Positions 23,558-43,190 of a stretch of DNA of 64,000 bases are shown here, piece by piece. The notes under the pieces are model-generated. The model was not told the origin of the DNA. It searched no databases and saw nothing but the letters and a program-made list of their open reading frames with translations. This DNA is from Prolixibacteraceae bacterium (GTDB lineage Bacteria > Bacteroidota > Bacteroidia > Bacteroidales > Prolixibacteraceae), in contig JABGRN010000016.1 in NCBI GenBank assembly GCA_018648265.1, positions 1 to 64,000 on the forward strand, read 5' to 3'. Position numbers and translations under genes: made by a program. The first letter of the stretch is position 1, and every line of letters starts with the position of its first letter.

Positions 23558-23571
23558 GAAATTAAACATTT

Positions 23572-25230
23572 ATGATCATGAATAAAATAAAAAATAGTTT
23601 TATAATCGCATTAGCTTTAGTGTTTACTTTTGTTATATCTTGTAAAGATCTGGACGAATTAAATATTAATCCAAATGGTGTTGATCCTGAAAAGGCAGAC
23701 CTTAACTTATTATTACCTACAATAGTTACGGGCGTTGGTCAATATGTTGTAAGTTTAGGATTCGATCGTTTTTCCGGCGTTATGCAACATACCCAAAAAG
23801 ACGGGTGGTCGGGTAACCATAACGATTATGACTGGGATAATTCAAGTACTAGTTGGTCAGGTTACTATAGTATATTAAGAAATAATGATGAGTATTACAA
23901 AAAAGCAATAGAAGGGGAAAACGAGTTTCATCAAGGTGTTGCATTAGTAATGAAAGCTTATACTTTTGGGCTAATTACCGATTTATGGGGTGATGCACCA
24001 TATTTAGAAGCACTAAAGGCCGATCTGGGTGAAGAATTTTTCAAACCAGTATTTGATTCTCAAAAGGATATTTATACCGGTATTCTTGCTGATTTGGAGA
24101 CTGCAAATACATTATTGTCAAAAAGTAGCGACTCGTATTCAAATATATCTCCAAGCCAGGATGTATTGTATAATGGTGATGTAACAAAATGGAGAAAATT
24201 TGCAAATTCACTGGCACTTCGGTATTATATGAGATTATCCCTAAAAGAACCGGGAGTAGCGGAACAGGGGATTAGAAATATTGCTTCTAATCCTGGCACT
24301 TATCCATTAATTACAAGTGCAGCCGATGATGCAACTGTTAGTTACATAGGTTTATCACCGGCTGATTCATGGCCAACAAATACAGTATTCAATCCCGATC
24401 CAAGTGGTACTTACATGAGGTTAAAATTGTGTGCAACTCTTGTTGATGTTCTTCAGGATCTGAATGATCCAAGATTAGGTGTATGGGCAAATAAGATTGA
24501 AACACCGTTGGAGTTAGTGGATGGGGAAAATATTGACCAAATTATTGGTGGCGTAAGACAAATTTCGCAAGACATTGTTGATGCGTACGAGCTATCATGG
24601 TCGTTGGGAGTAGATTATGATCCTGAATATGTAGGAATTCCTCCCTCGGTGTTTGCTGCTCCACAATACAATTTAAATCCAAATTTGGATCAGGGAGTTT
24701 TTAATCCACATGCTTCTCATTTGAACGACATTTATAAAGAATCAGCAGGTTCCTTGTTACTAATGAGAATAATGTCCGCTGCCGAAGTTCACTTTATTCT
24801 AGCCGAAGCAGCTTTATATGGCTGGGCATCAGGAACTCCGGAAGGACATTATGCTGTCGGTATTGAACAATCATTTAATGCCTGGGGTGTTGGCGATGCT
24901 TTTGGAAATTATATTGACGGTGCTCCTTATTCAGGCCTCGAAAGTATAATTGAACAAAAATGGATTGCAAGTTGGACCGCTGCAGCCGAATCCTGGTTTG
25001 ATTATCGAAGAACTGGTCTGCCAGATCTGCAAACAGGCGAATCTGCAAAAAGAGCTGCATTACCTCTTCGGTTTTATTATCATTATGATGATGAAATAGC
25101 AAAAAATACGGTCAATGCAGAAGCGGCAATAGAGAAATTAGAACCAACGGCTTTTAAAGGTAACGACATAAGTAATAACAGTGCATGGTCAAAAACATGG
25201 TTGTTACAGGGAACAGGTAAACCTTATTAG
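23572..25230 (+). CDS. SusD/RagB-family lipoprotein (SusD-like_2 type)
   Basis: A 552-residue lipoprotein with lipobox FVISC and the N-terminal motif ELNINPNGVDPEKADLN typical of the SusD-like_2 branch. Conserved features include FGLITDLWGDAPY, the TPR-like helices, AEVHFILAEAAL and YRRTGLPDL. It should cap the SusC barrel and bind the glycan at the cell surface. Translation may begin at 23572 or at the second ATG at 23578; I keep the first. It is the last gene before a strong terminator. No local hybrid two-component or ECF regulator is present. Confidence 0.93.
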   Translation: MIMNKIKNSFIIALALVFTFVISCKDLDELNINPNGVDPEKADLNLLLPTIVTGVGQYVVSLGFDRFSGVMQHTQKDGWSGNHNDYDWDNSSTSWSGYYSILRNNDEYYKKAIEGENEFHQGVALVMKAYTFGLITDLWGDAPYLEALKADLGEEFFKPVFDSQKDIYTGILADLETANTLLSKSSDSYSNISPSQDVLYNGDVTKWRKFANSLALRYYMRLSLKEPGVAEQGIRNIASNPGTYPLITSAADDATVSYIGLSPADSWPTNTVFNPDPSGTYMRLKLCATLVDVLQDLNDPRLGVWANKIETPLELVDGENIDQIIGGVRQISQDIVDAYELSWSLGVDYDPEYVGIPPSVFAAPQYNLNPNLDQGVFNPHASHLNDIYKESAGSLLLMRIMSAAEVHFILAEAALYGWASGTPEGHYAVGIEQSFNAWGVGDAFGNYIDGAPYSGLESIIEQKWIASWTAAAESWFDYRRTGLPDLQTGESAKRAALPLRFYYHYDDEIAKNTVNAEAAIEKLEPTAFKGNDISNNSAWSKTWLLQGTGKPY

Positions 25231-25280: not shown

Positions 25281-25313
25281 ATATATAAAAGATTAAGATT
25301 CAAATTGAATAAT

Positions 25314-26867
25314 ATGAAAAAATGGTTATTAAGAATTGGAGCAACAATACTTGGTATTTTGCTTCTGTTAATAGTATTGGGATTGTTAAATATGCGTGAT
25401 CGTCATCCCGGATATGAAGTAGATTTGCTCATTCACGGAGCAGAAACTCCTGGTACAATCAAAGTAGGTTTTGCGGCTTTTCCAATCACTCCAACAGTTA
25501 TCGACACCTGGAACGACAAAAACGGCGATGCAAGGTTTAATGAAAAAGATGGCGACACCTATAACGACAACAATAACAATGGAAAATTCGATGCATTTTG
25601 GATAGCCGGTTTTAGCAATAAAAAGCCTGCCAACGGAGTACACGACGACGTTTGGGCACGCACTGTAGTTTTTGATGATGGCAACACCCGACTAGCAATG
25701 GTTTCGCTCGATGCCATTGGTTTTATGCACGAAGATGTTGTTGATATCCGGCTGGAAATTCCTGAAGAACTGGGAATAGATTATACCGTTATTTCGAGTA
25801 CACACACACACGAAAGCAACGACTTAATTGGTATTTGGGGCGAAAGTCCTTTGAAAAGCGGGGTGAATAAAGAGATGATGAAATATGTGAAGAGTCAAAC
25901 TCTTGCGTCAATTACTAAAGCTGTCAAAGGATTGCGTCCTGCAAAACTCCAATTTTCAGAAGATTTAACAGGTGCAAAAGACCAATTAATGGACACGCGC
26001 GAGCCCATTGTATTTGATGCAGGAATGCGTTTTATTCAAGCCATCGACACAGAAAATGATTCAACACTCGGAGTTGTAGTAACCTGGGGAAACCACCCTG
26101 AAACATTATGGGCCGATAACCTGCTAATCAGCTCCGACTTTCCACATTATGTTCGCGAATTTATTGAAAAAGGTGTATATAATAATGGGGAATTAATTAT
26201 GCCGGGCGTTGGTGGAACTGCAGTTTATTTTAGCGGTGCCGTTGGTGGATTAATGACAACACGTGGTTCGATGCCAATAAAGGGACCTTTCTCTGATACA
26301 GAATTCACAACACCCAATTATGACAAACTTTTAGCTCAAGGACAAAAATTGGGATTACTTTCTCTAAATGCTTTGGCAAACCCTGATTCAATTGTAGAAG
26401 AATCACAAATTTCAATTCATGCAAAAACAATTGAATTACCACTTGCCAACAATACCTTTAAACTTGCAGCAGCTATAGGATTACTGAACAAAGGACTTAC
26501 CGGATTTTTTACTGCTCGGACCGAAATTGCTGCATTCTCAATTGGCCCGGCTAGCATTATTTGTGTTCCGGGAGAAATATATCCCGAAATTGTTAATGGT
26601 GGGATTGAAACGCCGGAAGGACAAGATTTTGATATTCAACCTGTCGAAACTCCACCTTTACGTGAGTTAATGCCTGGAAAATATAAATTTGTTCTCGGAT
26701 TAGCCAATGATGAAATTGGATACATTATACCAAAAAGCGAGTGGGATGTGGAAGCACCTTATTTATACGGAGCAAAAAAATCTCCTTACGGCGAAGGAAA
26801 CTCTTTTGGACCTGAAACAGCACCAATTTTACACAAAGAATTTCAAACCATTTTAGGTGAACTGTAG
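25314..26867 (+). CDS. Neutral ceramidase-fold protein with calcium-loop insert (paralog 3)
   Basis: I begin at the ATG at 25314; the upstream TTG at 25305 adds only three residues and has no support. The 517-residue product has an N-terminal membrane segment. After the start of the ceramidase-like domain (VGFAAFPITP) comes an Asp/Asn-rich insert, DKNGDARFNEKDGD and YNDNNNNGKFD (about 68-93), which looks like tandem calcium-binding loops. The metal-site motif SSTHTHESN (His164, His166) and GNHPETLW (His261) are kept, but the catalytic-serine motif of true ceramidases is replaced by FSGAVGGLMTT. It follows the susD terminator, so it probably has its own promoter. Likely a periplasmic metallohydrolase of unknown substrate. 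Confidence 0.72.
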   Translation: MKKWLLRIGATILGILLLLIVLGLLNMRDRHPGYEVDLLIHGAETPGTIKVGFAAFPITPTVIDTWNDKNGDARFNEKDGDTYNDNNNNGKFDAFWIAGFSNKKPANGVHDDVWARTVVFDDGNTRLAMVSLDAIGFMHEDVVDIRLEIPEELGIDYTVISSTHTHESNDLIGIWGESPLKSGVNKEMMKYVKSQTLASITKAVKGLRPAKLQFSEDLTGAKDQLMDTREPIVFDAGMRFIQAIDTENDSTLGVVVTWGNHPETLWADNLLISSDFPHYVREFIEKGVYNNGELIMPGVGGTAVYFSGAVGGLMTTRGSMPIKGPFSDTEFTTPNYDKLLAQGQKLGLLSLNALANPDSIVEESQISIHAKTIELPLANNTFKLAAAIGLLNKGLTGFFTARTEIAAFSIGPASIICVPGEIYPEIVNGGIETPEGQDFDIQPVETPPLRELMPGKYKFVLGLANDEIGYIIPKSEWDVEAPYLYGAKKSPYGEGNSFGPETAPILHKEFQTILGEL

Positions 26868-28065: not shown

Positions 28066-30210
28066 ATGAAGAATTTTATTTATTTAATATTATTATTGAC
28101 TTTAGGAGCTTGTGCAATTTCTGATAACGAAAGACAGGAGATTAGCCTAAATGGCTCGTGGGAATTAACCAGCACCGACAATCAATCAGATATTCCCACA
28201 GTGTTTGAAAGTAAAGTCCCGGTTCCGGGTTTAATTGACATGGCAAAACCTGTTATTCAAAATCAAGATACTATTTACGAGAACTCTACATTTTGGTATA
28301 AAACAAAATTCAAACTTGATCATGCCAAAATCAAAAACGTAAAATTAAAAATCAATAAGGCTAAATATTCCACAAGCGTGTATTTGAACAACCAGCTTGT
28401 CGGAGAAAACAGTTACAATTTCACACCATCCGTTTTTGATATTAAATCAGCACTAAATAAATCGGGTGAAGAGAATGTATTGATTATTGCTATTGGCTCT
28501 AGAAATAATCTGCCTGACACCGTGGCCAATGGCCATGATTTTGAAAAAATAAAATATATACCCGGAATCTACGACGATGTAAAACTTATTTTAGCTAACG
28601 GACCATTTATAAGCAATATTCAAACTGTGCCAGATATTGAACAGGAAGAACTTCGTATTGTGGCAAATATTGAGACAGATAATCCGGGTCAAATTATTAA
28701 ATCATCCTATGTAATAAGAGAACTTGTTTCAAAAAAAGTTGTAGCAAGTGGGAGCAATAAAAACATTAAATTGATTGAAAAAGGAAATATCGATTTTACG
28801 GTATCGATACCTGATTGCAAACTTTGGTCTCCCGAAAATCCATTTCTTTATGAATTAGAGTTTTCAACCCAAAACGACAAAGTAAAAGTTCGGTTTGGAA
28901 TGAGAAATTTTTATTTTGACAATAACAAGGGTTATGCCATGCTAAATGGAAAACCATACTACATGCGGGGAACAAACGTATGTATATTCCGTTTTTTTGA
29001 AGACCCAGAAAGGAATGGATTACCATGGGATAAAAAATGGGTAACTAAACTGCATGAGAAATTCAAGGAAATGAATTGGAACAGCATTCGTTATTGTATT
29101 GGTTTTCCTCCCGAAGAATGGTACAATATTGCTGACAGCCTAGGTTTCCTTATTCAGGATGAATTTCCTATCTGGACATTAAGCAAAGGATTTGAAGAGT
29201 TTCAGGGCGGATTAACCTCAACCCATCTTTCAACTGAATTTTATCAATGGATGGAAGAACGTTGGAATCATCCATCCGTAGTTATTTGGGATGCACAAAA
29301 TGAAACTGTAACTGATGTAACGGGAGATGCCATCAAAAAAGTGCGACATTACGATTTATCAAATCGCCCATGGGACAATGGCTGGGGTGCTCCGGTTAGC
29401 GAATCAGATTGTGTCGAAACTCACCCCTATTTATTTCAAAGGTATAATGAAGGCTCAAAGCCAGGTCCATATGGAGGGCAATTCCCTTCTCAACTTGGAC
29501 CATTAAAAGATTTGTTAACCGAGGTCAGGATTCCATTTAACGGGCCAAATATGAAATCTCCAAGACCTGATGGAAAACGATACAATAACCCGATAATTGT
29601 AAATGAATACGCATGGATTTGGCTAAACCGCGATGGCTCTCCAACCACACTTACTGATAGAGTTTTTCGAATCTGTTTTCCGGAAGCCGATACCCCTGAA
29701 AAAAAGCATGAAGCATATTCAAAACACTTGGGCATTCTTACTGAATATTGGAGAGTACACCGTAATTCTGCTGCAATTATGCATTTCTGTGGTTTGGGGT
29801 ATTCACGTCCGGAAGCTCCACGTGGTCAAACCAGTGACAACTTTACTGACATTAAAAACCTTGTTTACGAGCCGCATTTTCTTCAATATGTAAAACCGTC
29901 TTTTAGCCCGGTCGGTTTAATGATTGAAGTATGGGATAAAGCATTTAAACCAGGAGCTACTGTTGATGTCCCTGTACATATTATAAACGATACCTATGAA
30001 AAGTGGTTTGATACTATTAAACTTTCTATCATATCAGGCGAACAAGTTGTGTCTCAGCAGAATATAGAATGCGACTTAGAAATGTTGGGGAAAAACGTAT
30101 ATAATTTATCCATGAAAATGCCATCAGAAAATGGGAAATACAAGCTTGTCGCAGAAATAATATACAAAGATGAACCAGTAAAAAGTATCAGAGATTTTAT
30201 TATTGAATAA
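28066..30210 (+). CDS. GH2-family glycoside hydrolase, lipoprotein
   Basis: A 714-residue enzyme with a lipobox-like LGAC. It has the GH2 order: sugar-binding jelly-roll (SLNGSWELTS, then FWYKTKFKL), immunoglobulin-like domain, and a TIM barrel starting near MRNFYF and YYMRGTNVCIFR. The acid/base is Glu413 in VIWDAQNET and the likely nucleophile is Glu514 in IIVNEYAWIW. GH2 members cleave beta-galactosides, beta-glucuronides, beta-mannosides or alpha-arabinofuranosides; the sequence does not decide between these. It opens the tight enzyme operon that ends at 43190. The 256 bases upstream contain no gene and should hold its promoter. Confidence 0.85.
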   Translation: MKNFIYLILLLTLGACAISDNERQEISLNGSWELTSTDNQSDIPTVFESKVPVPGLIDMAKPVIQNQDTIYENSTFWYKTKFKLDHAKIKNVKLKINKAKYSTSVYLNNQLVGENSYNFTPSVFDIKSALNKSGEENVLIIAIGSRNNLPDTVANGHDFEKIKYIPGIYDDVKLILANGPFISNIQTVPDIEQEELRIVANIETDNPGQIIKSSYVIRELVSKKVVASGSNKNIKLIEKGNIDFTVSIPDCKLWSPENPFLYELEFSTQNDKVKVRFGMRNFYFDNNKGYAMLNGKPYYMRGTNVCIFRFFEDPERNGLPWDKKWVTKLHEKFKEMNWNSIRYCIGFPPEEWYNIADSLGFLIQDEFPIWTLSKGFEEFQGGLTSTHLSTEFYQWMEERWNHPSVVIWDAQNETVTDVTGDAIKKVRHYDLSNRPWDNGWGAPVSESDCVETHPYLFQRYNEGSKPGPYGGQFPSQLGPLKDLLTEVRIPFNGPNMKSPRPDGKRYNNPIIVNEYAWIWLNRDGSPTTLTDRVFRICFPEADTPEKKHEAYSKHLGILTEYWRVHRNSAAIMHFCGLGYSRPEAPRGQTSDNFTDIKNLVYEPHFLQYVKPSFSPVGLMIEVWDKAFKPGATVDVPVHIINDTYEKWFDTIKLSIISGEQVVSQQNIECDLEMLGKNVYNLSMKMPSENGKYKLVAEIIYKDEPVKSIRDFIIE

Positions 30211-30322: not shown

Positions 30323-32905
30323 ATGAGAAATTCATTTCAAAAATTAAATTTAAGGATAATATTTTCGATTAATGTATTTGTGATTAGTTTGTTATCAGTT
30401 TCAGCTCAATCGACAAACATTTTTAATATTACTGATTTTGGCGGAATTGGTGATGGACAAACAATAAATACAAATGCCATTCAACAAACGATTGACGCCT
30501 GTTCTGCTCAAGGAGGTGGTGTTGTTAATTTTCCGGCTGGAGATTATGTTTCTGGTACAATATATCTAAAAGATAACATAACCCTGAATTTAGAGGCTGG
30601 GGCAATTTTAATGGGAAGCACCACACATAAAGATTACCCACTCAATAATTGCGATTTTGCATCTTTTACGGATAGTTACACCGGAAGGGCATTGATTTGG
30701 GGCGAAGGTTTGCACAATATCGCTATTACCGGGCGAGGAACTATCGATGGACGAGGAACAGAATTCAGGGATATTCACCCAAGCAAAGAAGAATGGGAAG
30801 AGCAGATTAAATTTTATAAAGACAGTACCCGGTATGTTCCCGGTGAAAATTATATTAACCGCCCCTATGCAATTCGTTTTATAAGTTGCTCAAATGTTCT
30901 GGTTGAAGGAGTTACAATGAGAAACTCAGCAATGTGGATGCAGCATTATCTAAATTGTGAATTTGTTACAATTAAAAATATAAACGTATTTAACCATGGC
31001 AGTGCAAATAACGATATGATTGACATTGATGGTTGCAGAAATGTTGTTATGTCGGATTGCTTTGGGGATACAGAAGATGATGCCCTTACTTTAAAAAGCA
31101 CAGCAGAAATGCCAACTGAAAATGTGAGTATCAGCAACTGTGTTATCCGTACCCGGACTAATGCAATAAAAGCCGGAACAGAATCTTCGGGGGGCTTTAA
31201 AAATATATCAATAAGCAATTGTGTAATAAAAGCCTCTACAGTTGGTGAGCGCGTTGCGGGAACTAATAAAGGACAGGCAGGAATTGCTCTTGAGTTAGTG
31301 GATGGTGGTGTTCTCGATAAAATTACCATTTCCAATATTACAATTGAAAACATGATTGCCCCCATTTTTTTAAGACTTGGAAACAGGGCAAGGAAATATC
31401 GGAAAAATATTAAAACACCAAAAACAGGGGTTTTTCAAAATGTAAAAATCAGCAACATAATTGCAACCGGAGCCGGAGATACAGGCTGTTCGATCCTTGG
31501 GCTGAAAGATCATCCTATAAAAAATGTTTCTATTAATGATGTCAGAATAAGTTTTGCCGGTGGGGGAACTTTGTTGGATGCTCAAAAGGAAATTCCGGAA
31601 GATGTGGATGGTTATCCCGAAAGTACTCGTTTTGGAAATTTACCAGCATATGGATTTTTTGTAAGACACGCTGAAGAGATTACTTTTAGGGATATTTATT
31701 TTGATTTTTATACTGCTGAAAAAAGGACTGCCCTACTTTTTGATGATGTAAATAAATTGAAAATATACAATTTGCATGCAGAAGTATCACCTGAAATTCC
31801 ACAGGTAACTTTAAAGAATACCAACGAGGTATTTATTTCTGAATGTTATCCTGCCAAAACAGACATTTTTTTAAAAATTGAAAATAATAGTGAACAAGTT
31901 GGTTTGATCGGCAATAACTTTAACCGAATTGATAAACCATTAGTATTGGATGAATCAATCAAATTGGCCAATCTTCAATTTGCCGGTAACTTTCCTTACA
32001 AATCATTGTTTGCTACACTTCAACCAACTGTAAAAAGGGATCAATTTGGCTTGATAAACATCTCTTCCTTCACTCCTAATAGTGATATTTATTACACACT
32101 CGATGGGACAGAGCCTACAATATCGTCGAAAAAATACAGTACTCCTGTAGAACATACCGAAAAAGTGTTACTTAAGGCGAAAGTATTTAAGAACAAAAAT
32201 GTAAGCCGCACTACAGTAGTAAATTTAGATAAGGCTACGGTCATAAATCCGCAAATCGAACCTTCAAATTCATATTTTAATAAAGATTTAAATGTTGAAC
32301 TTTCATGTACTGATCCTAAGGCTGAAATAAGATATACTTTAGATGGAGCTGAACCAGTTGCAACTTCGATGTTATATCGAAAACCAATTAAAATTGGGAA
32401 TACTTGTACCGTTAGGGCAAAAGCTTTTAAAAATGGGTATGAACCCAGTTCTGGGGTAACATCAAAATACGAACAGGTTCCTCTGGTGGATGGAGTTCAA
32501 TATAAATATTACGAAGGGGGTTGGTACGACATTCCGGAATTAATTGAGCTCTCTCCAATCAGAACAGGAATTGTACCTGATTTTAGTCTTGGGGAAATTG
32601 GACCAAAAGTCCTAAAATATGCTTTATTAATGATTGGGTATATTAATATTGAAAAATCGGGCAACTATACTTTTTACTGCAGTTCAAACGATGACAGCGA
32701 ATTATACATTGATAGTAAACTGTTAATTTATGATGTCTTTTTCGGATTTCAGGAATTGAAAAAAGAAATTTATCTGGAGAAGGGCATACATCAAATTGAA
32801 GTGAGATATATCCAAAGAGGCGGGTTGGAATCTTATAAAATTTCAATTGAAGGAGAAGGACTTGAAAAACAAGAACTCACCTCAGAAAAATTAAGCGGGC
32901 ATTAA
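30323..32905 (+). CDS. GH28-family polygalacturonase-like enzyme with CHB_HEX and PA14 modules
   Basis: An 860-residue secreted protein. Residues about 30-560 form a GH28 parallel beta-helix: FNITDFGGIGDGQTINT at the start, then SANNDMIDIDGC and FGDTEDDALTLKS, which hold the catalytic aspartates, and many ISN-x-x-I coil repeats. GH28 enzymes hydrolyse alpha-galacturonide bonds in pectin or rhamnogalacturonan. Two chitobiase-C-terminal-like modules follow, each with a YTLDG-x-EP core (about 590 and 672), then a PA14-like module (TGIVPDFSL, GYINIEKSGNYTFYCSSNDD) to the end. The same tail occurs on the GH92 protein at 38576. It suggests binding to a common glycan or surface target. The exact linkage cleaved is unknown. 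Confidence 0.85.
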   Translation: MRNSFQKLNLRIIFSINVFVISLLSVSAQSTNIFNITDFGGIGDGQTINTNAIQQTIDACSAQGGGVVNFPAGDYVSGTIYLKDNITLNLEAGAILMGSTTHKDYPLNNCDFASFTDSYTGRALIWGEGLHNIAITGRGTIDGRGTEFRDIHPSKEEWEEQIKFYKDSTRYVPGENYINRPYAIRFISCSNVLVEGVTMRNSAMWMQHYLNCEFVTIKNINVFNHGSANNDMIDIDGCRNVVMSDCFGDTEDDALTLKSTAEMPTENVSISNCVIRTRTNAIKAGTESSGGFKNISISNCVIKASTVGERVAGTNKGQAGIALELVDGGVLDKITISNITIENMIAPIFLRLGNRARKYRKNIKTPKTGVFQNVKISNIIATGAGDTGCSILGLKDHPIKNVSINDVRISFAGGGTLLDAQKEIPEDVDGYPESTRFGNLPAYGFFVRHAEEITFRDIYFDFYTAEKRTALLFDDVNKLKIYNLHAEVSPEIPQVTLKNTNEVFISECYPAKTDIFLKIENNSEQVGLIGNNFNRIDKPLVLDESIKLANLQFAGNFPYKSLFATLQPTVKRDQFGLINISSFTPNSDIYYTLDGTEPTISSKKYSTPVEHTEKVLLKAKVFKNKNVSRTTVVNLDKATVINPQIEPSNSYFNKDLNVELSCTDPKAEIRYTLDGAEPVATSMLYRKPIKIGNTCTVRAKAFKNGYEPSSGVTSKYEQVPLVDGVQYKYYEGGWYDIPELIELSPIRTGIVPDFSLGEIGPKVLKYALLMIGYINIEKSGNYTFYCSSNDDSELYIDSKLLIYDVFFGFQELKKEIYLEKGIHQIEVRYIQRGGLESYKISIEGEGLEKQELTSEKLSGH

Positions 32906-32930: not shown

Positions 32931-34163
32931 ATGAAAACGTACAAACATTATCTTTTAAACACACTATTTGCAATAATTTTAACAATAATATTTTCTCCTG
33001 TGTCTTTTGCTCAGGAAAACCAAATAGATTTTAATCCTGAGTTTGAAAAGGTAAAATCAAGGGTGAGTTATGTTCCCGGAATAAAAGTTATAAGAGGCGA
33101 AACTCATGTTATCGCGCCTGAACACGAAAGTTTTTGTCCGGCTGGCAGTGTTTTTAAATTTACTAATGGCGATATCCAGGTGTATAACAGAAGATCCTCC
33201 GATGGAGGAAAAAGCTGGAAACAAGTAGATCATATCCTTGAAAATTCTACTTATCAGTATCCCGGATCAGATGGAGAAGTGATTATGTTTCAATCTGCTA
33301 ATCCGGCAGGAAGCTCAACAAATGAGGGAAGACCTGAAGTTTCTTTACAAAAGATTAACGAGGAAGGAGTTTTTGAGGCTAATTTTTTTCGTTCAAAAGA
33401 CAATGGAATAAGCAGGGAAAGCGACCCCGCTAAAATTTTCCTTCCAAAGGAATTTGCTGATTGGTCAGGTGTTTTGTGTCGCAAAATAGTAAAGCTCGCC
33501 GATGGGAATTTGCTCGTGAGCATGTACATTAGAAATCCAGAAGGAAATTTGCACGAAAAAATGTTTCGTGTTTTGGCATTGCAATCAACTGATCGGGGCA
33601 AAACCTGGCATTATCTTTCAACAATCGCCTTCGATATGGCAGATGATGTACGGGGTGAAGGTTTTAACGAATCAGCTTTACTTGTTCTTCCCGATGGAAA
33701 AGTGATATGTTATATTCGATCTGGGGCCAGCTACCAAAACTCTTTGGGGAGCTACAATAACAACGATTGGAATACTAAAATGCCTTTTAGTTACGGCAAA
33801 CAAACAGCTATTTACAAAAGTGTTTCAATAGACGGTGGAAAAAACTGGAGTTATCCAGACCCCATAACTACACATGGAGTTTGGCCCGATGCATTGCTTA
33901 TGAAAAATGGAATCATTGCAATGACGTATGGACGACCAGGCAATTGGATAATGTTTAACGATGGGAAAAGCGAAAACTGGGGTCCTATTATTCCATTTTA
34001 TAATGACATTTATCCGCCAGATTGTGGAAACTATATTTCATTGGCGGAAGTCGCTCCAAATATTTTATTGGTAGTTTATTCCCGCACAAATCCCAACGAC
34101 CATTGGCAAAGTGAAATTGTTGGCACTTACTTTAATGTTAAACCGATGATGATAAATGAATAA
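32931..34163 (+). CDS. Sialidase-fold (BNR/Asp-box) secreted hydrolase
   Basis: A 410-residue protein with a signal peptide ending near FAQE. It has at least three Asp boxes of the S/T-x-D-x-G-x-x-W type: RSSDGGKSW (about 90), STDRGKTW (about 220) and SIDGGKNW (about 299), giving a six-bladed propeller. The RIP arginine motif of true GH33 sialidases is not visible in the first blade, where the sequence reads CPAGSVFKFTNGD, so sialic acid is doubtful as substrate. Other sialidase-fold families act on arabinan or other pectic glycans, which fits the GH28 genes on either side (25 and 12 bases apart). Confidence 0.7.
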   Translation: MKTYKHYLLNTLFAIILTIIFSPVSFAQENQIDFNPEFEKVKSRVSYVPGIKVIRGETHVIAPEHESFCPAGSVFKFTNGDIQVYNRRSSDGGKSWKQVDHILENSTYQYPGSDGEVIMFQSANPAGSSTNEGRPEVSLQKINEEGVFEANFFRSKDNGISRESDPAKIFLPKEFADWSGVLCRKIVKLADGNLLVSMYIRNPEGNLHEKMFRVLALQSTDRGKTWHYLSTIAFDMADDVRGEGFNESALLVLPDGKVICYIRSGASYQNSLGSYNNNDWNTKMPFSYGKQTAIYKSVSIDGGKNWSYPDPITTHGVWPDALLMKNGIIAMTYGRPGNWIMFNDGKSENWGPIIPFYNDIYPPDCGNYISLAEVAPNILLVVYSRTNPNDHWQSEIVGTYFNVKPMMINE

Positions 34164-34175
34164 ATAGAGACTATT

Positions 34176-35862
34176 ATGAATCCTGAAAAATCAGAAATAC
34201 CATACAAACCATTAGTTATATTTTTATTTATTGGGATCATTTTAATGGTTTTTGACTTTTCTGCCAATTCGAAGCAAACTGTTTTTTTTGATGTAACAGA
34301 TTTTGGTGCTACCGGTAATGGAAAGATTAAAGATACGCCCGTAATCCAAAAAGCTATAGATGCTGCGAGTAAGGCAGGTGGTGGTACAGTTTATTTTCCG
34401 GCGGGCACCTATTTGTCGGGTGGCCTTATGTTGTGCGATCATGTAACTTTGCACCTCGAAGGAGGATCAACATTACTAAGAAGCACCGACCTTGCCGATT
34501 TTCCTTCGCATTCCACACAATTTCGTTCCTTCACCGAAAGATACGTCCACCACAGCCTTCTTTTTGCTGAAGATCTGGAGAATATAACTATCGAAGGCCG
34601 TGGTACAATTGACGGGCAAGGTACAATTTATCGTAAATTGAATCGGCAATTTCGTCAACGTCCCCACATTATCCGTTTTGTAAGTTGCCGTAACATCCGG
34701 ATCAGGGATATTACAATGGTTAACTCCCCTTTTTGGGTTCAGCACTACCTCGATTGCGATGATTTGGTAATAGATGGAATCCGTGTCAACAGTTACGAAG
34801 GGTTAAATAACGACGGAATGGATATTGACTGTTGTAGAAACGTCAGGGTCTCAAATTGTTATATCCACTCCCATGACGACGCTATCGCTATTAAAAGTAC
34901 ATCTGATCAAACAAGTGAAAATATAACTATTACCAACTGTGTTTTAAGTACGGCATCTCAGGGTATAAAACTTGGAACGGAATCTAACGGTGGATTTCGT
35001 AATATTACTGTTACAAATTGCACTATCAGGAAACCGGGTCTGGATGAAAAGGATTGGGACCGGGTGCCTCGTGGTGTTTGCGCTATTGGAATGATGATAA
35101 TTGATGGTGGGTTTCTCGAGCGGATAAATATTTCAAACATTACAGTGCGTGGTATGGACGCAATACTTTTTATTCGCCTTCGCAATCGTGCACGGCCTTT
35201 TCTTCGCAACCTCAACGATCCTGAATTGCCGGAATTTCCCAACGCACCTAAGGCTAAAATTGGCTCTGTGCGTGATGTTCATATTAGCAACATTATTGCT
35301 CGTGATATTGGGCCACGGGGATCAGATATTACCGGGTTGCCAGGATATCCGGTTGAAAATATTTCTATCAGCGACATTGATATAAATGTTGAAGGTGGTG
35401 AATGCTTTTCCGGCTAATTATGTAATTAAAGAAGTTCTCGAAGGTGATCCAGCCCTAAAATTGGATCATGCAACAAAAATGAAAAAATTATTGCCATCCA
35501 ATGGTTTCTATTGTCGGCATGTAAATGACCTTAGGTTTCGGAGTATCAATATTGGATCGGAAAAACCGGATCAGAGGCCGGCTTTGATTTGTGACGATGT
35601 GAAAAATTTGGAAATTGACAGATATATTGGCCCGTCTGTGCCAGGTGGATCAGCAATGATGGATTTTAAGGATGTTCAGGGAGCATTTATCCGGGGCTGT
35701 TTTGTACCTGAGGCTTGCGATGTATTTATGCGATTTGAAGGTAAAAAGAACAGACATTTTACTGTTATGGGTAACGACCTGAGCCTTGTAAAAACTGCCT
35801 TTGTTTTTGAAGGTGGGGCAACGGGTAAATGTTTATACGAATCAAACAACCGGAGAAAATAG
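34176..35862 (+). pseudogene. GH28-family enzyme gene interrupted by a frameshift
   Basis: The first frame (34176-35417, 413 codons) is a GH28 beta-helix with a signal anchor, FFDVTDFGATGNGKIKDT, LNNDGMDIDCCRN and HSHDDAIAIKS. It ends abruptly at VEGGECFSG. A second frame (stop at 35862) resumes the same protein family: NAFPANYVIKEV, GFYCRHVNDLRFRSINIG, and a tail that parallels residues 430-560 of the GH28 protein at 30323. Removing one base at about 35398-35401 would join them as VEGG-NAFPANYV, giving an enzyme of about 560 residues. Either the gene is recently inactivated, or this is a sequencing error or a programmed shift. The catalytic aspartates are in the first part. Confidence 0.8.
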
Positions 35863-35935: not shown

Positions 35936-38533
35936 ATGAAAACAAAACACAGAAAATTAATTGTTACGTGCTTTTTAAGTTTCATTACAACATTAAATTT
36001 ATTTGCACAAAAAATGGAAGTTGATGTTAATAGTCAATCTAACTTGATGCCGGATATGGATATAGAATATCGTACCGCAGGCGATTACCATGACAGTGGA
36101 AGTTGGAAAAAAACATTAAATGACAAAGCAGTTTATTTTGAAAAGAATACAATTGAACGTCACAATATTGAAGGTACATATCCATCGTCGGTAAGGTTGC
36201 GCCCCCCAACGAGGTTTTATAATGGTTCGCAAAAAGATGCATGGAAAATATTAAATACAACAGGTGAATTGCCACAAGGTTGGTTTGTGGACCATGGAAC
36301 AACCGGATTGTCAAATGTTGCCCATACCAGCTCGTGGACGGGAAACCTTATAACGGCCAAGGCTTTCCATGTGGCATTTCTACGAAAAACGAAAGGCGAA
36401 AACAATAAGGAATTCAAGGCTGCATATAAACAGGCAAATGAAATAATCTCCGGGATAAGAAAACTAACTTTAGTTAGTGGACAAGCTGGATATCTGGCAA
36501 GAGGCTTTGCTTTAGGTCATGGACCCACGTACGCCGAACGTCATTACCGTTGGGGAGAAGACAATTCCCGCGATTTATGGAAACAAGGGGTAGGGGAGTT
36601 TTCTAACTTAAGATATCGGGGAGGCCCAAGCCATCATAATTACGACCAGGTTTTTAGGGGCCTGGGTATTTACTATTTTATTGCTGCTGATAGTATTCAA
36701 AAGGAAAATATCAGGGAAATTGTTGAAGATATGTCAAATTGGGCGCATCTAAAAAATAACATGAATGTTATGCTCGAAAATGGTGAAGATATTAGTACCG
36801 AACTGATTGGCGGCTGGCGTGCACTCGATGGTGATTCAAGGCCATCGGGAAGTTCAATTATGGCAACAACAGGGTTAAAAATTGCATATCTTATTACAGG
36901 CAATAAAAAAGTGAAAGAGCTCTACGATAAGTGGGTTGAAATACTTCAGTATCGCGAATTTAAAGATTCAGAGGAAAATTTTATGGGAGAAGAACGCGAA
37001 AACTACGACGATACTGATCATTTGCTTCCTGATCTTTACCTTCTTAATATAATTGAGGAAGATGAAGACTTGCTGGCGTTTTATAAAAAATGTGTAAAAG
37101 ATTCATGGAGTGTACACAAAAACGACAAATTATCGTGGTTTAATTTTATTTATCAGGCTGTTTTGGGTGATGAATTTGGGGATAGTGAAGGTTCGATTTG
37201 GAACCTGCAAACATTTCCCACAAACAGGATTTTACAACCCCAGATGAACAGCATTAGAAACGATATTGAGTTTTACAATAATAATGGAGACAAGCAAGCT
37301 CTTCATCCTTTACCGGTTTATGCTCGCCCATCGGACAACGAATATGAATGGAAACGTTCTCCGTATGCATTGGATGGATGGTTAAGCCGAACTATTAACG
37401 TACTGGAAGTTTCGCCCTACGATAATTATGTGCAATTCGCCATAGAAACAAATGGTAGTGTTCATCGAAGTTTGACCAAGGGTGAAACCTGGCAAAAAAT
37501 GGATGGGCTTTCCGGGGTTAACGACATCCTGTTATTTTCGAATTACAGATGGCTCGTTATTGCCGCAACAGAACATGGTATTTATCGCTCGTTTAATTGT
37601 GGGGATACCTGGGAAAAATCTTCAGATTTGGTGGTCGATCGATTTTATCAAAAAAGTAAAAATTCAAACATCATTTATGCCCTTTCTTCCGAAGGAATTT
37701 ATGTTAGTAATGATTTTGGTGAGTGGGGGGCAGCAGGGAACTGGGAATTAATAAGTGGGAAAACACCAAGGTTATCGTCTAAGAATTTTGCTGTTGAAAT
37801 TGATGATAAAGTTGTAAATATGTTTATGCAAACAGCACAGGGATTGTATTGCAAAACTAATAATGATTTAAATTGGTCGCCACCGGCACCTGCTATCCGT
37901 GGTAGGGGATTTAGTGAAGTTATGACCTTCCCCGGAAAACCAATATGGACCAAGGTGCATGGTAAAAGAATTTTTAGTGCCATATTAATTTCCGATTGGG
38001 CATTCAAAGGAAATATTATTGTTGTAAGTGAAGATGAAGGTAAAAGTTGGGTCCCGATTGTAAAAGAATTAGATCCTATTTATAAATGGATGATTCATGC
38101 CAAAGAAGGAAAGTCGCTGCATGTCAACGAATTAACGAAATTATTAGATCAACTTAAAATGTTATCGATACAGGATTTGATTATTGATAAAGAAGACAGT
38201 AACACCTGGTATGGAATGATTGAATCGGGTGTGGCAATTACTCATAATGCCGGTAAAACATGGAAAATCAGCAATAATGGATTATACATCCCACGGGTAA
38301 ACAAGATTTTTACTTCGAGATATTCAAACGATATTTATGTAAGTACTCCGGCCGGGGTGTACGTTAGTAAAAATAAAGGGGAATCGTGGGATGATACTTC
38401 GCTGATCCTGAACGACGTTGGAGCCCTCAGAGCAGAAATAGGAGGTGTAGGATATCTTGAAGCCTATTGGTTGGGAATGTATCACGGATTTATTACCAGC
38501 GAAGAGGCAAACCAACTTTGGTGGCAAGAGTAA
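35936..38533 (+). CDS. Secreted protein with helical (toroid-like) N-domain and Asp-box propeller; candidate new glycanase or lyase
   Basis: An 865-residue protein with a signal peptide (cleavage near LFAQ). Residues about 85-470 look mainly helical, with conserved-looking Trp, His and Tyr clusters (WFVDHGTTGLSN, GHGPTYAERHYRWGEDNS, YRGGPSHHNYDQVFRGLG, NYDDTDHLLPDLYLL), as in alpha/alpha-toroid hydrolases and lyases. From about 500 to 820 there are five Asp boxes (SLTKGETW, SFNCGDTW, SEDEGKSW, THNAGKTW, SKNKGESW), indicating a beta-propeller of the sortilin/BNR type. I do not recognise the N-domain as a named CAZyme family. The place in the operon, between GH28 and GH92, argues for a role in breaking or binding the same glycan. 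Confidence 0.65.
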   Translation: MKTKHRKLIVTCFLSFITTLNLFAQKMEVDVNSQSNLMPDMDIEYRTAGDYHDSGSWKKTLNDKAVYFEKNTIERHNIEGTYPSSVRLRPPTRFYNGSQKDAWKILNTTGELPQGWFVDHGTTGLSNVAHTSSWTGNLITAKAFHVAFLRKTKGENNKEFKAAYKQANEIISGIRKLTLVSGQAGYLARGFALGHGPTYAERHYRWGEDNSRDLWKQGVGEFSNLRYRGGPSHHNYDQVFRGLGIYYFIAADSIQKENIREIVEDMSNWAHLKNNMNVMLENGEDISTELIGGWRALDGDSRPSGSSIMATTGLKIAYLITGNKKVKELYDKWVEILQYREFKDSEENFMGEERENYDDTDHLLPDLYLLNIIEEDEDLLAFYKKCVKDSWSVHKNDKLSWFNFIYQAVLGDEFGDSEGSIWNLQTFPTNRILQPQMNSIRNDIEFYNNNGDKQALHPLPVYARPSDNEYEWKRSPYALDGWLSRTINVLEVSPYDNYVQFAIETNGSVHRSLTKGETWQKMDGLSGVNDILLFSNYRWLVIAATEHGIYRSFNCGDTWEKSSDLVVDRFYQKSKNSNIIYALSSEGIYVSNDFGEWGAAGNWELISGKTPRLSSKNFAVEIDDKVVNMFMQTAQGLYCKTNNDLNWSPPAPAIRGRGFSEVMTFPGKPIWTKVHGKRIFSAILISDWAFKGNIIVVSEDEGKSWVPIVKELDPIYKWMIHAKEGKSLHVNELTKLLDQLKMLSIQDLIIDKEDSNTWYGMIESGVAITHNAGKTWKISNNGLYIPRVNKIFTSRYSNDIYVSTPAGVYVSKNKGESWDDTSLILNDVGALRAEIGGVGYLEAYWLGMYHGFITSEEANQLWWQE

Positions 38534-38575: not shown

Positions 38576-41500
38576 ATGAAAAATTCGGTTTATATTATCA
38601 GCTTAATAGCTATTTTTTTATTGTCAGGATGTAGCCCGTTTTTAACAGATAAAGAACCGGTAGATTTTGTTGATCCCTTACTAGGTACTTCCAGTTGCCG
38701 TTGGATGCTTTTCCCCGGGCCAAGTATGCCATTTGGGATGGTAAAATTAAGTCCCGACAATACCGATGAATACCTGATGGATGCCGGCTATGAATTTGGA
38801 ATTAATAGTATTGCCGGTTTTGGGCATGTCCACTCATGGTCCATGGGGAGTTTTTTAACAATGCCGGCAACAGGAGAAATAAAGATATTGCCAGGAACAA
38901 AAGATGATCCTGATTCCGGATACCGTTCAAGAATTAACCATGATAACGAAAAGGCCTCTCCCGGATATTATTCCATTTTATTGGATGATTATGGAATAAA
39001 AGCAGAACTGACTTTAACAACGCGAGCTGGGTTTCAAAGATATACCTTCCCAAAAATGAAAAGCGGGCACGTACTCTTCGACTTGCAGGTGCCTGAAGAA
39101 GTACAATCTACCATTATAAAAGCATCTATAATAAAAGTGAGTGATACTGAAATTGCCGGATATGTACAACGTGAAGCCGGATGGAATGAATATATCCTTC
39201 ATTTTGTTGCCAGGTTCAACCGTCCCTTTTATTCAATGGGTGGATGGCAGGGATCCGATATTCTTGATGATGCAATGGAGATAGTGGTAGGTTCAGATTC
39301 TGATATCGGGGCATTTTTGAAATTTAATTTGGATGACCATCAAACTGTTTTAATGAAAACCGGCATTTCCTATGTAAGCATTGAACAGGCCCGGCTTAAT
39401 ATGGAAACAGAAATGGAAGAGTTTGGGTGGGATTTTAACGCCCTTCATAAAAATGCAAGGGATACATGGAACAATTTATTGGGTAAAATAAAAGTCGAAG
39501 GAAATTCGGAAACGGATAAAATAAAATTTTATACAAACCTTTATCGGTCATATTCTGCCAGGACAATTTTTAGTGATGTGAACGGGAAATATGTTGATAT
39601 GTGTGAGAATGTAAATCAACTGGCCGATCCTGATTCTCCAGTTTACGGTTGCGATGCATTCTGGAATACATTTTGGAATTTGAACCAGCTTTGGGGATTA
39701 GTCAACCCCGATATCACCGAAAAATGGGTTAATTCCTTACTCGAAATTTACGATAAAGGAGGATGGTTGCCAAAAGGTCCCGGAGGAATTGAATATTCAA
39801 GTATTATGGTTGCGTCGCATGAAATTCCGCTTATCGTAAATGCCTGGCAAAAAGGTATTCGTAATTTTGATGTTGAGAAGGCTTATAAAGCCATGAAGGA
39901 TATTCAGATGATGCCTGCCCAAACTCATAAATGCGGCGGAAATGTCGGAAACTGGAACTTAATGAAATACATCGAAATGGGCTATGTCCCGGTAAACGAA
40001 GGCCCGGCATCGAATACACTTGAATATGCGTACGATGATTGGTGCCTGGCACAAATAGCAAAAGCCCTGGGGAAAATGGATGATTATGAATATTTTATGA
40101 AAAGGTCCCAAAATTATCGCAATATTTTTGACCTTTCTACCGGATATATGAGACCAAAATATTCTGGTGGTCCTTGGTTTGAAGAGTTTACTCCTATAAA
40201 AAGTGCAGTGGGAAAAGAAGATAATTTTGGAACAAAAGATTATGTTGAAGCAAATGCCTGGCAGTTTAGTTGGTTCGTACCTCATGATTTAAAGGGATTG
40301 ATTGATTTAATGGGTCTCAACGAGTTTAATAAAAGGTTAGAAGAAGGATTTGAAAATTCGCGCCCGGTGTTCACCAGCGAATTTGTAAATCACAGTAATC
40401 AACCCAATATGCAGGCCCCCTGGCTTTTTAACTATTCCGGAAAACCCTGGCTTACCCAATATTGGGTACGCGAAGTCCTTGACAATTATTATGGGACTGG
40501 CCCTGTTGACGGTTATCCGGGCGATGAAGATCAGGGACAAATGGGGGCGTGGTACGTAATGAGTGCCATTGGTCTTTTTCAGATGGACGGTGGGGCTTCG
40601 GTTGACCCGGTTTACGAAATTTCGGGTCCGATTTTCGAAAAAGTGACCATAAAGCTTGATCAGAATTATTATGAAGGCAATGAGTTTATAATTGAAGCAA
40701 AAAATGCCTCTTCTGAAAATAGGTATATACAAAAGGCTACTTTAAACGGTAAAGAATTAAATAATTTCTGGTTAAAACATTCAGAGTTGGTTGAAGGTGG
40801 AAAACTTGTTTTGATAATGGGACCTAAACCGAACAAAAAGTGGGCTTCAACCAGCGAACATCCTCAGATAATGGATGTTGACCCTATTATTACAACACCT
40901 TATGTAATTGATACAGACAAAATATTCCTTTCCGAAAGATTGGTTAAACTTGCTTGCGATACTAAAGATGCCGAAATTTACTATACACTTGATGGTTCAG
41001 ATCCCGATAAGAATTCGCAATTATATAATGAACCTTTTATTGTTAATAAAACAACAAAGGTAAAAATGATAGCCTGGAAAGGTGAACAAACGAGTTTATC
41101 TTCCTTGGCCATTATTACAAAAACAATAATGAGCAAACCAGTTCAACTTGTAGAAGTTGAACATGGCCTTTTGTACAAATATATACAGGGTTCTTTCCGA
41201 ATGGTTAATGATTTTTTAGAAATCCCACCCATAGAAACCGGCATTGTACCTCATTTTTCAATTGAACCAAGGAACCAAGAACAATATTTTGCTTTCGATT
41301 ATCAAGGCTATATTAATATTGCTGAAGACGGGATTTATACATTTTATATTGCCTCAAACGATGGCGGACAACTTTACATCGACAATCGTATCCTGATAAA
41401 TAGTGATGGCTTACATCCTCTGGCAGAAGTTTATAAACCTATTGCATTAAAAGTCGGGTTTCACCCAATTTCGGTAAAATATTTCCAGGCTGGTGGAAGT

Positions 41501-41587
41501 AATGGTTTAACTGTGTCGTGGCAGGGCCAGGGATTTGCGAAGCAGGAAATACCGGGTTCAGTATTGTTTCATAAAAAAGGTCAATAA
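38576..41587 (+). CDS. GH92-family alpha-mannosidase with CHB_HEX and PA14 modules
   Basis: A 1003-residue lipoprotein (lipobox LLSGC). The GH92 N-terminal sandwich begins VDFVDPLLGTSS and continues with FPGPSMPFGMVKLSPDN and GFGHVHSWSMG. The catalytic barrel includes WNTFWNLNQLWGLVNP and the signature GDEDQGQMGAWYVMSAIGLF. GH92 enzymes are calcium-dependent exo-alpha-mannosidases. After about residue 760 come a chitobiase-C-terminal-like module (YYTLDGSDP) and a PA14-like module (TGIVPHFSI, GYINIAEDGIYTFYIASNDG), matching the tail of the GH28 protein at 30323. The gene follows the 865-residue protein by 42 bases. Alpha-mannosidase activity is the family's known reaction; the polymer is inferred. 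Confidence 0.9.
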   Translation: MKNSVYIISLIAIFLLSGCSPFLTDKEPVDFVDPLLGTSSCRWMLFPGPSMPFGMVKLSPDNTDEYLMDAGYEFGINSIAGFGHVHSWSMGSFLTMPATGEIKILPGTKDDPDSGYRSRINHDNEKASPGYYSILLDDYGIKAELTLTTRAGFQRYTFPKMKSGHVLFDLQVPEEVQSTIIKASIIKVSDTEIAGYVQREAGWNEYILHFVARFNRPFYSMGGWQGSDILDDAMEIVVGSDSDIGAFLKFNLDDHQTVLMKTGISYVSIEQARLNMETEMEEFGWDFNALHKNARDTWNNLLGKIKVEGNSETDKIKFYTNLYRSYSARTIFSDVNGKYVDMCENVNQLADPDSPVYGCDAFWNTFWNLNQLWGLVNPDITEKWVNSLLEIYDKGGWLPKGPGGIEYSSIMVASHEIPLIVNAWQKGIRNFDVEKAYKAMKDIQMMPAQTHKCGGNVGNWNLMKYIEMGYVPVNEGPASNTLEYAYDDWCLAQIAKALGKMDDYEYFMKRSQNYRNIFDLSTGYMRPKYSGGPWFEEFTPIKSAVGKEDNFGTKDYVEANAWQFSWFVPHDLKGLIDLMGLNEFNKRLEEGFENSRPVFTSEFVNHSNQPNMQAPWLFNYSGKPWLTQYWVREVLDNYYGTGPVDGYPGDEDQGQMGAWYVMSAIGLFQMDGGASVDPVYEISGPIFEKVTIKLDQNYYEGNEFIIEAKNASSENRYIQKATLNGKELNNFWLKHSELVEGGKLVLIMGPKPNKKWASTSEHPQIMDVDPIITTPYVIDTDKIFLSERLVKLACDTKDAEIYYTLDGSDPDKNSQLYNEPFIVNKTTKVKMIAWKGEQTSLSSLAIITKTIMSKPVQLVEVEHGLLYKYIQGSFRMVNDFLEIPPIETGIVPHFSIEPRNQEQYFAFDYQGYINIAEDGIYTFYIASNDGGQLYIDNRILINSDGLHPLAEVYKPIALKVGFHPISVKYFQAGGSNGLTVSWQGQGFAKQEIPGSVLFHKKGQ

Positions 41588-41759
41588 ATTACAATTGGAT
41601 TTCAACTTTATAAAAAATTACGAAAAATATTAAATTCTGATCCTTTTTCAGGTTAATATTAATTTGATAGTTATTAAGTGTCTTATTTATTTGCCTTTAA
41701 GACAAAATAAGGATAAATTTAACTTGTTTAAAATCGACAACTTAAAACCGTTACTTATT

Positions 41760-43190
41760 ATGAAGAACAAAAGCAATTTTACACGCAGGGGTTTTTTGGC
41801 AACTACTGCAACCGCTGCTGCCGGATTAACGATCGTTCCCTCAAATACCATTGCAGGATTAGGGCATAAGGCTCCCAGCGATAAACTGAATATCGCAGGT
41901 ATTGGAGTTGGCGGCATGGGCAAAGGTAACCTTAGAAGAATGGCTGGTGAAAACATTGTTGCACTTTGCGATGTTGACTGGACTACCGGCGGAAGAATTA
42001 ATGTACCACAGGTTTTTGAAACTTACCCAAAAGCTGCACAGTATTACGACTGGCGAAAAATGTATGATGAAATGGGGAAATCGATTGATGCGATTATGGT
42101 TGCAACTGCAGACCACACCCATGCCATTATTACAGCAAATGCAATTGCGATGGGTAAACATGCGTTTACCCAAAAACCATTAACCCACAGTGTTTACGAA
42201 TCACGCTTACTAACAAAGCTGGCAGCAAAACACAAAGTGGCTACTCAGATGGGAAACCAGGGATCTTCAGCAGAAGGTGTAAAGTTGATCTGCGAGTGGA
42301 TTTGGAATGGAGAAATTGGTGAAGTAAAAGAGATAGAAGCGTACACAAATCGCCCAATTTGGCCACAAGGATTAGATGCACCTACAGAAGTAATGCCTGT
42401 ACCTGAAGGCCTGAAATGGGATCTTTTCTTAGGACCAGCGAAGTTCCGTCAGTACAATTCGGCTTATCATCCTTGGGTATGGCGTGGTTGGTGGGATTTT
42501 GGAACTGGTGCACTTGGCGATATGGCTTGCCATATTATGCATCCAATATTTACAGCTATGAAGCTACAATACCCTACAAAGGTAATTGGTAGTTCTACAC
42601 CTTTTACGCCCGATTGTGCACCAAATGCAGAGATAGTACATCTTACGTATCCGGCACGTAAAAAGCCGGCAAACGTCAAAATAGATTTACCCGAAGTTCA
42701 GGTAACATGGTACGATGGTGGTCTTAAACCTCAATTCCCAGATAGTTGGCCGATTGACAGAGTTCAAAATTCAGGTGTTCTTTTCCATGGAACTAAAGAC
42801 ACGCTTGTTTGCGGTGAGTATGGAACTGATCCAATACTTCTTTCTGGCAGGGTACCCAATGTTCCTAAAACGGAGAGGCGTATCGAAGGTCATGAACTAG
42901 ATTGGATACGTGCTTGTAAAGAAAGCCCTGAGAATCGTGTGGCGACCGCATCTGATTTTAAAGATTCGGGTCCATTCAACGAAATGGTTGTTATGGGTGT
43001 TCTGGCAACCCGTCTTCAAGCCCTCAATAAAGTTCTACATTGGGATGGACCAAACATGACCTTTACAAATGTAAGCGAAGACGATCAACTCAGGATTAGC
43101 AGACGTAATTCTATCCCGGCGAAAGAATTTGCTGACGGATTGATCAAACATAATTATCGTGATGGGTGGTCATTACCCGACATGCCCTAA
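41760..43190 (+). CDS. Gfo/Idh/MocA-family oxidoreductase, Tat-exported
   Basis: I start at 41760 because the protein then begins with a twin-arginine signal (NFTRRGFLATTATAAAGL); the longer frame from 41664 adds 32 residues with no signal character. The Rossmann fold follows (NIAGIGVGGMGKGNLRRM, VALCDVDW), with the family's QKPLTH in place of the usual EKP and a C-terminal dehydrogenase domain (WRGWWDFGTGALGDMACH). Members oxidise or rearrange sugars with bound NAD; some exported relatives act as glycosidases by a redox mechanism (GH109-type). It is the last gene of the operon and is followed by a strong terminator. Confidence 0.85.
   Translation: MKNKSNFTRRGFLATTATAAAGLTIVPSNTIAGLGHKAPSDKLNIAGIGVGGMGKGNLRRMAGENIVALCDVDWTTGGRINVPQVFETYPKAAQYYDWRKMYDEMGKSIDAIMVATADHTHAIITANAIAMGKHAFTQKPLTHSVYESRLLTKLAAKHKVATQMGNQGSSAEGVKLICEWIWNGEIGEVKEIEAYTNRPIWPQGLDAPTEVMPVPEGLKWDLFLGPAKFRQYNSAYHPWVWRGWWDFGTGALGDMACHIMHPIFTAMKLQYPTKVIGSSTPFTPDCAPNAEIVHLTYPARKKPANVKIDLPEVQVTWYDGGLKPQFPDSWPIDRVQNSGVLFHGTKDTLVCGEYGTDPILLSGRVPNVPKTERRIEGHELDWIRACKESPENRVATASDFKDSGPFNEMVVMGVLATRLQALNKVLHWDGPNMTFTNVSEDDQLRISRRNSIPAKEFADGLIKHNYRDGWSLPDMP

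Follow-up and report, generated by a model that had tools for sequence, protein, structure and literature searches.

The gene under study lies within a window of 64,000 nucleotides (the whole stretch of DNA that was analysed), in a run of genes headed by a TonB-dependent receptor/SusD pair and closed by a glycoside 3-dehydrogenase. Its neighbours in this run are the following:

20150-25230, + strand: TonB-dependent receptor/SusD pair, at the head of the gene run
28066-30210, + strand: GH2 (Pfam/NCBIfam)
30323-32905, + strand: GH28 (Pfam/NCBIfam)
32931-34163, + strand: BNR_2 protein (Pfam/NCBIfam)
34176-35417, + strand: second GH28 (Pfam/NCBIfam)
38576-41587, + strand: GH92 (Pfam/NCBIfam)
41664-43190, + strand: BT_2158-family glycoside 3-dehydrogenase (762 bits versus a cutoff of 750)

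An earlier note on this DNA had placed the gene in a tight operon with GH28, GH92 and GH2 enzymes. These neighbours are present, in a cluster of the polysaccharide-utilisation type, whereas the single operon is what strand and spacing suggest. The BT_2158-family enzyme closing the run hints at 3-keto-glycoside chemistry in the pathway, and a UxaC uronate isomerase gene is located about 15 kb downstream. Between 34176 and 35862 of the window, the GH28 frame 34176-35417 stops early, and an overlapping frame (35386-35862), in which Pfam found nothing, resembles by eye the missing tail; this split is likely a frameshift or an assembly error. A tail composed of Fn3_assoc/CHB_HEX_C_1 and PA14 is common to the GH28 at 30323-32905 and the GH92 at 38576-41587, and a tail of this type is also borne by the BNR_2 protein in L046. 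Two further proteins of the window (17608-18867 and 25305-26867) have sub-threshold matches to neutral ceramidase.

With regard to the gene itself, its features are, on the same numbering:

35936..38533, + strand: whole gene, 865 residues and stop (open frame)
35936..36007, + strand: signal-peptide-like N-terminus, residues 1-24 (read by eye)
36110..37378, + strand: toroid, first part, residues 59-481, helices alpha1 to alpha11 (hhalign with 35 relatives; model helices)
36326..36346, + strand: rim segment at alpha2, residues 131-137, at or beside the relatives' DNDG (the exact pairing varies between two alignments)
36617..36646, + strand: rim segment at alpha4, residues 228-237, with His233, His234 and Tyr236; replaces the relatives' SSDE
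36794..36817, + strand: rim segment, residues 287-294; replaces the TRWxxW part of the relatives' DGKPTRWxxW
37007..37021, + strand: rim segment at alpha8, residues 358-362, with Asp359 kept (alignment)
37247..37264, + strand: rim segment, residues 438-443, with Asn438, Arg441 and Asp443 kept (alignment)
37379..38410, + strand: inserted propeller, about residues 482-825 (VIA-align, Foldseek; second half poorly modelled)
37469..37492, + strand: Asp box 1 (loose), residues 512-519 (motif scan)
37589..37612, + strand: Asp box 2, residues 552-559 (motif scan)
38027..38050, + strand: Asp box 3, residues 698-705 (motif scan)
38240..38263, + strand: Asp box 4, residues 769-776 (motif scan)
38366..38389, + strand: Asp box 5, residues 811-818 (motif scan)
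38420..38485, + strand: last toroid helix alpha12, residues 829-850, 3' of the propeller (model helix 805-826, +24 giving protein numbering; hhalign tail)

That the 865-residue protein joins a helical domain to an Asp-box propeller, as previously proposed, is borne out by the frame at 35936-38533, by Pfam, by the Asp boxes and by the structural models. Of the five Asp boxes counted in the earlier note, four follow the strict form [ST]x[DN]xGx[TS]W (at residues 552, 698, 769 and 811), while the fifth (512) holds only in a loose form, its Asp position being occupied by Thr. Shuffled sequence (n=2000) yields on average 0.003 strict boxes (maximum 1) and 0.04 loose ones (maximum 2). At E ≤0.1, the only Pfam families matched by the protein are Sortilin-Vps10 (37.6 bits versus a cutoff of 33; best stretch 766-823) and BNR (22.7 bits versus a cutoff of 27; stretch 768-777). 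NCBIfam returns a single sub-threshold family (62.5 bits versus 175), with its best stretch, 490-564, in the propeller, and phmmer found no PDB chain at E ≤1. Repeated Asp boxes are combined with a predicted propeller fold, as in the Asp-box propellers of Ycf48, sortilin Vps10 and GH74. The best VIA-align match of the propeller is Ycf48 (5ojp_B; Z 17.4, rmsd 3.8, 268 aligned), which is not known to be an enzyme. Sortilin, Ycf48 and GH74 are among its Foldseek matches, GH74 and sortilin are likewise listed by VIA-align, and the matches listed for the full-length model (mean pLDDT 63) are all propellers.

What distinguishes this propeller from those three is its insertion in a toroid. It had been described as the C-terminal part of the protein, a placement that has to be given up: the propeller is nested, and the last toroid helix (residues 829-850) follows it. 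Its location in the last toroid loop follows from the matches of residues 59-481 to the toroid and of residues 832-859 to the final toroid helix. Against a template of 35 relatives, hhalign pairs the former with columns 27-404 (probability 99.7, pairwise E 3.6e-25) and the latter with columns 409-436 (probability 92.3, pairwise E 5.7e-7), these E-values being for one pair and not for a database. The template matches are contiguous across the propeller, whereas two propeller stretches of similar size, used as controls, were unmatched to the toroid template (probability 4.5% and 0.5%); with both hhalign parts, homology to the unnamed propeller-toroid family covers the whole toroid. In an alignment of 38 sequences, the relatives' last helix (YWxGRYHG) pairs with the extreme end of the 865-residue protein, beyond the propeller. 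The full-length model, in which most of residues 651-787 have a pLDDT below 50, has the propeller between the eleventh and the twelfth main toroid helix, the alpha12 blocks having pLDDT values of 34, 77 and 96. On alignment and model together, the propeller sits in the alpha11-alpha12 loop, on the presumed active-site rim. A classification of Asp-box propellers describes, in the excerpt consulted, the reverse case, in which other domains are set inside propellers or between them (PMC2716378). Among open-licence papers, searched by titles and abstract starts, no toroid with an inserted propeller was described.

The alpha/alpha-toroid suspected in the N-terminal part gained support from fold prediction and structural search. 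For the relative L026, modelling yields a high-confidence toroid (pLDDT 89.3, pTM 0.91) with twelve main helices, and twelve corresponding helices are found in the full-length model (pLDDT 63); both models contain short extra helices besides these, and the order of the twelve suggests that outer and inner helices alternate. In Foldseek, the L026 toroid has its best listed matches among 2-epimerases of cellobiose and N-acetylglucosamine (best E 7.2e-5, query TM-score 0.45, rmsd 9.8), with GH9, GH88 and GH146 entries standing lower in the list; query TM-scores reach only 0.39-0.47 for the ten best. VIA-align, which re-examines the Foldseek candidates, has 7tem, a putative exported protein, in its top row (Z 18.9, rmsd 3.9, 300 aligned). 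The rows below include GH76, cellobiose 2-epimerase, neutral invertase, GH9 and also GH105 (Z 15-17.5, rmsd about 4-5), and a family that has no row may still share the fold. For mostly helical models a Z below about 13 may be chance; the matches of the modelled toroid exceed this level and show a fold, not a function. This fold, seen through the relative's model, is that of the six-hairpin (alpha/alpha)6 superfamily (cellobiose 2-epimerase, GH76, GH9, GH88/105, GH146), but identity is about 5-14% in the listed matches and none of these families' HMMs scores above cutoff. The helical domain also remains unassigned, as it was in the earlier note, in that the toroid matches no characterised family of Pfam or NCBIfam above cutoff, nor the PDB by sequence. 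Neither outcome that the earlier note had named as a refutation, a clear hit to a characterised family or a predicted fold lacking a toroid or cleft, came up, the cleft itself being putative.

The toroid family is unnamed and occurs in Bacteroidota. Over 38 members, no convincing match was obtained with Pfam (best E 0.0087, single member) or NCBIfam (best E 0.066, single member), and the toroid profile gave five chance-level matches against PDB sequences (best E 0.56). GH127 (PF07944) was weak in 2 of the 38 members (best E 0.025) and not listed for the 865-residue protein at E 0.1; GH76, GH88/105 and GH9 were absent from the nine Pfam families matched by any of the 38 at E ≤5, a search in which few matches above about 0.1 pass the HMMER filters. 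Among 199 genomes near that of the window, a protein search with the helical part (E ≤0.001) found toroid relatives in at least 41, of which at least 24 gave more than one match; across the phylum it found them in at least 4 of 395 genomes, the window's own being included each time. A profile search, which scored no more than four candidates per genome, raised the phylum count to at least seven of 395. Besides the 865-residue protein, the window's genome encodes at least three toroid relatives. Plasmids contained no relatives of this toroid or of a canonical one.

Other than the gene itself, the helical-part protein search recovered distant relatives only. Their toroid is homologous and 12-helical, down to the final YWxGxYH helix (e.g., L002, L018, L026), but they usually have a propeller-like first half, whereas here an Asp-box propeller lies inside the toroid. 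In 49 of 55 gathered rows, 190-350 residues precede the toroid, and when four such N-terminally extended relatives were submitted to Pfam, two matched Reg_prop (one of them above cutoff), one had a sub-cutoff match to the PorZ propeller model, and one had no match. Little beyond the toroid is present in L008 (428-residue frame, no Pfam match), and in L016 (G401) the toroid is followed by a C-terminal FGE-sulfatase (sulfatase-modifying factor) domain. Most family members carry the DNDG, SSDE, DGKPT and DD motifs, and Gly185, Arg189, Trp215, Ser232, Gly283, Tyr339, Leu370, Tyr844 and Trp845 are invariant in the 38-row alignment. The nested form is rare: only two close relatives, L005 and L006, turned up among the species genomes, sharing 87% and 86% identity with the protein across 401 residues; the search that yielded them rested on short patterns from one protein. 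The nested form was found in at least 1 of 140 genomes of the family (up to six candidates scored per genome) and at least 1 of 393 of the order (up to four), each time the window's own. The branch of the nested clade amounts to 4.18 changes per column, in a tree that carries a long-branch warning and from which the position of the clade was not used.

Eleven acids are conserved in at least 90% of the 35 relatives, and all of them map to the inner-helix rim of the L026 model, i.e. the loops before the inner helices or their first turn, against a rim background of 31 of 54 acids (11/11 versus 31/54, p 0.0009, the 90% cut having been chosen after viewing the alignment). The 865-residue protein differs from its relatives in that nine of the eleven are changed; it keeps Asp359 and Asp443, on which a second (hhalign) alignment agrees, and so does not carry the full conserved set. 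At alpha4, the Ser-Asp present in 35/35 relatives is replaced by His233-His234, invariant in the three-sequence clade. More broadly, 29 of 32 family-conserved positions replaced here are invariant among the three clade sequences, in which invariance is high throughout; this count leaves out replaced residue 50, which the L005 and L006 rows stop short of in the alignment. Clade invariance of the rim segments (68/78) did not differ significantly from that of the rest of the toroid (247/304, p 0.25) or of the opposite rim (48/65, p 0.054), nor did the relatives' mean conservation differ between inner and outer rims (0.58 versus 0.56, p 0.39). The protein is under purifying selection, with dN/dS of 0.04-0.05 for the toroid (two of three pairs computable) and 0.10-0.19 for the propeller (three pairs, dS high); dS is near saturation versus L005, and toroid dS versus L006 is not computable. 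We hold with moderate confidence that the replaced rim represents a rebuilt site rather than decay.

The neighbourhoods of relatives were inspected in genomes of the window's genus or in its own, except for G190 and that of L006. In G401 and G405, relatives adjoin GH28, DUF2961 (GH172 in CAZy), a purple acid phosphatase and another phosphoesterase, and in G395 a relative adjoins GH2, BNR_2, and URO-D- and DHDPS-family genes. One relative in the window's own genome adjoins DUF2961, with DUF5916, carboxylesterase and PQQ genes nearby. A phosphorylated substrate is hinted at by the clustering of the toroid genes L045 and L050 (G401, G405) with a pair of calcineurin-like phosphoesterases, of which one matches the N-terminal domain of purple acid phosphatase. 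None of five scanned neighbours of the stand-alone toroid in G190 is a glycan gene. The nested gene L006 is adjoined by ASPIC/UnbV and asparagine synthase-like genes, not by glycosidases, so that the neighbourhood is not conserved, and the contig of L005 spans 3.2 kb only; the glycan-cluster context of the nested form therefore comes from one genome. As a whole, the context supports glycan breakdown, but no single substrate.

We tentatively favour the view that the 865-residue protein is a secreted carbohydrate-active enzyme of the polysaccharide utilisation cluster, more precisely a hydrolase with a rebuilt active site. Its catalytic body would be the (alpha/alpha)6 toroid, with the active site on the rim formed by the inner-helix N-termini. 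The propeller should wall or cap the cleft because it is inserted, in the alpha11-alpha12 loop, in this same rim, and it may help to choose the chain ends that enter. Most of the family acids would have been replaced in the clade by other residues maintained through selection, and glycosidic hydrolysis would be performed by rim carboxylates, either retained or newly acquired, with Asp359, Asp443 and Glu289 as candidates. The substrate would be a branched, uronate-containing glycan, presumably also attacked by the neighbouring GH28, GH2 and GH92. By our own analogy with PL40 Uly1040, the cleft might lie at the toroid-propeller interface. That enzyme also joins a toroid to a beta-rich domain, but the latter is, in the excerpt consulted, an antiparallel beta-sheet placed in tandem, whereas here the domain is a nested propeller (PMC12915356).

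The same cleft could accommodate a polysaccharide lyase or epimerase, in which the acid site has been swapped for a His/Tyr site acting on a uronic acid between toroid and propeller; His233, His234 and Tyr236 would stand at the alpha4 N-cap, while Asn438 and Arg441 would hold the carboxylate. This alternative, which we regard as conceivable but doubtful, draws on the clade-invariant His-His in place of the Ser-Asp of all 35 relatives, on the GH28 genes of the run and the UxaC gene downstream, and on the cellobiose 2-epimerases among the top listed Foldseek matches of L026. According to an excerpt on toroid lyases, PL12, PL15, PL17, PL39 and PL40 have a cavity between the toroid and the beta-sheet domain, and PL40 works with His and Tyr (PMC12915356). 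However, no sequence link to the toroid lyases was found, and the known ones, as far as that excerpt describes them, carry an antiparallel beta-sheet domain, not a propeller. No such domain follows the toroid of the 865-residue protein, where the propeller is found instead. That the clade constitutes a new enzyme family with new chemistry, namely a uronate lyase or epimerase with a His/Tyr site in the cleft between toroid and nested propeller, appears unlikely.

With only two of the eleven conserved acids left, catalysis could have been lost, and toroid and propeller would then bind or present a glycan. The nine replaced acids and the long branch of the clade are consistent with such a non-catalytic role, which we nevertheless deem quite improbable in view of the strong purifying selection, stronger on the toroid than on the propeller, and of the 29 of 32 replaced positions that are invariant in the clade, even though invariance there is high throughout. 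Least probable of all is a catalytic Asp-box propeller (GH33-, GH74- or GH93-like) with the toroid as mere scaffold, since the best VIA-align match of the propeller is Ycf48, not known as an enzyme, and the propeller evolves faster than the toroid, despite the GH74 and sortilin propellers among the listed structural matches and the statement, in an excerpt, that most medically important Asp-box-propeller proteins are glycosidases (PMC2716378).

To return to the putative hydrolase, its domain architecture is real and of interest, within a toroid family that goes unrecognised by the Pfam and NCBIfam copies used. Its activity, mechanism and substrate are putative, and it makes a good candidate for a sugar-cutting enzyme not yet described. 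Pipelines built on Pfam and NCBIfam would overlook this family, because neither library convincingly matches the 38 members searched, and the family provides a concrete candidate set for glycan-active enzymes. Within it, the nested clade resembles an experiment of nature that remade an active-site rim and inserted a whole propeller into it, and that is testable by mutation and structure.
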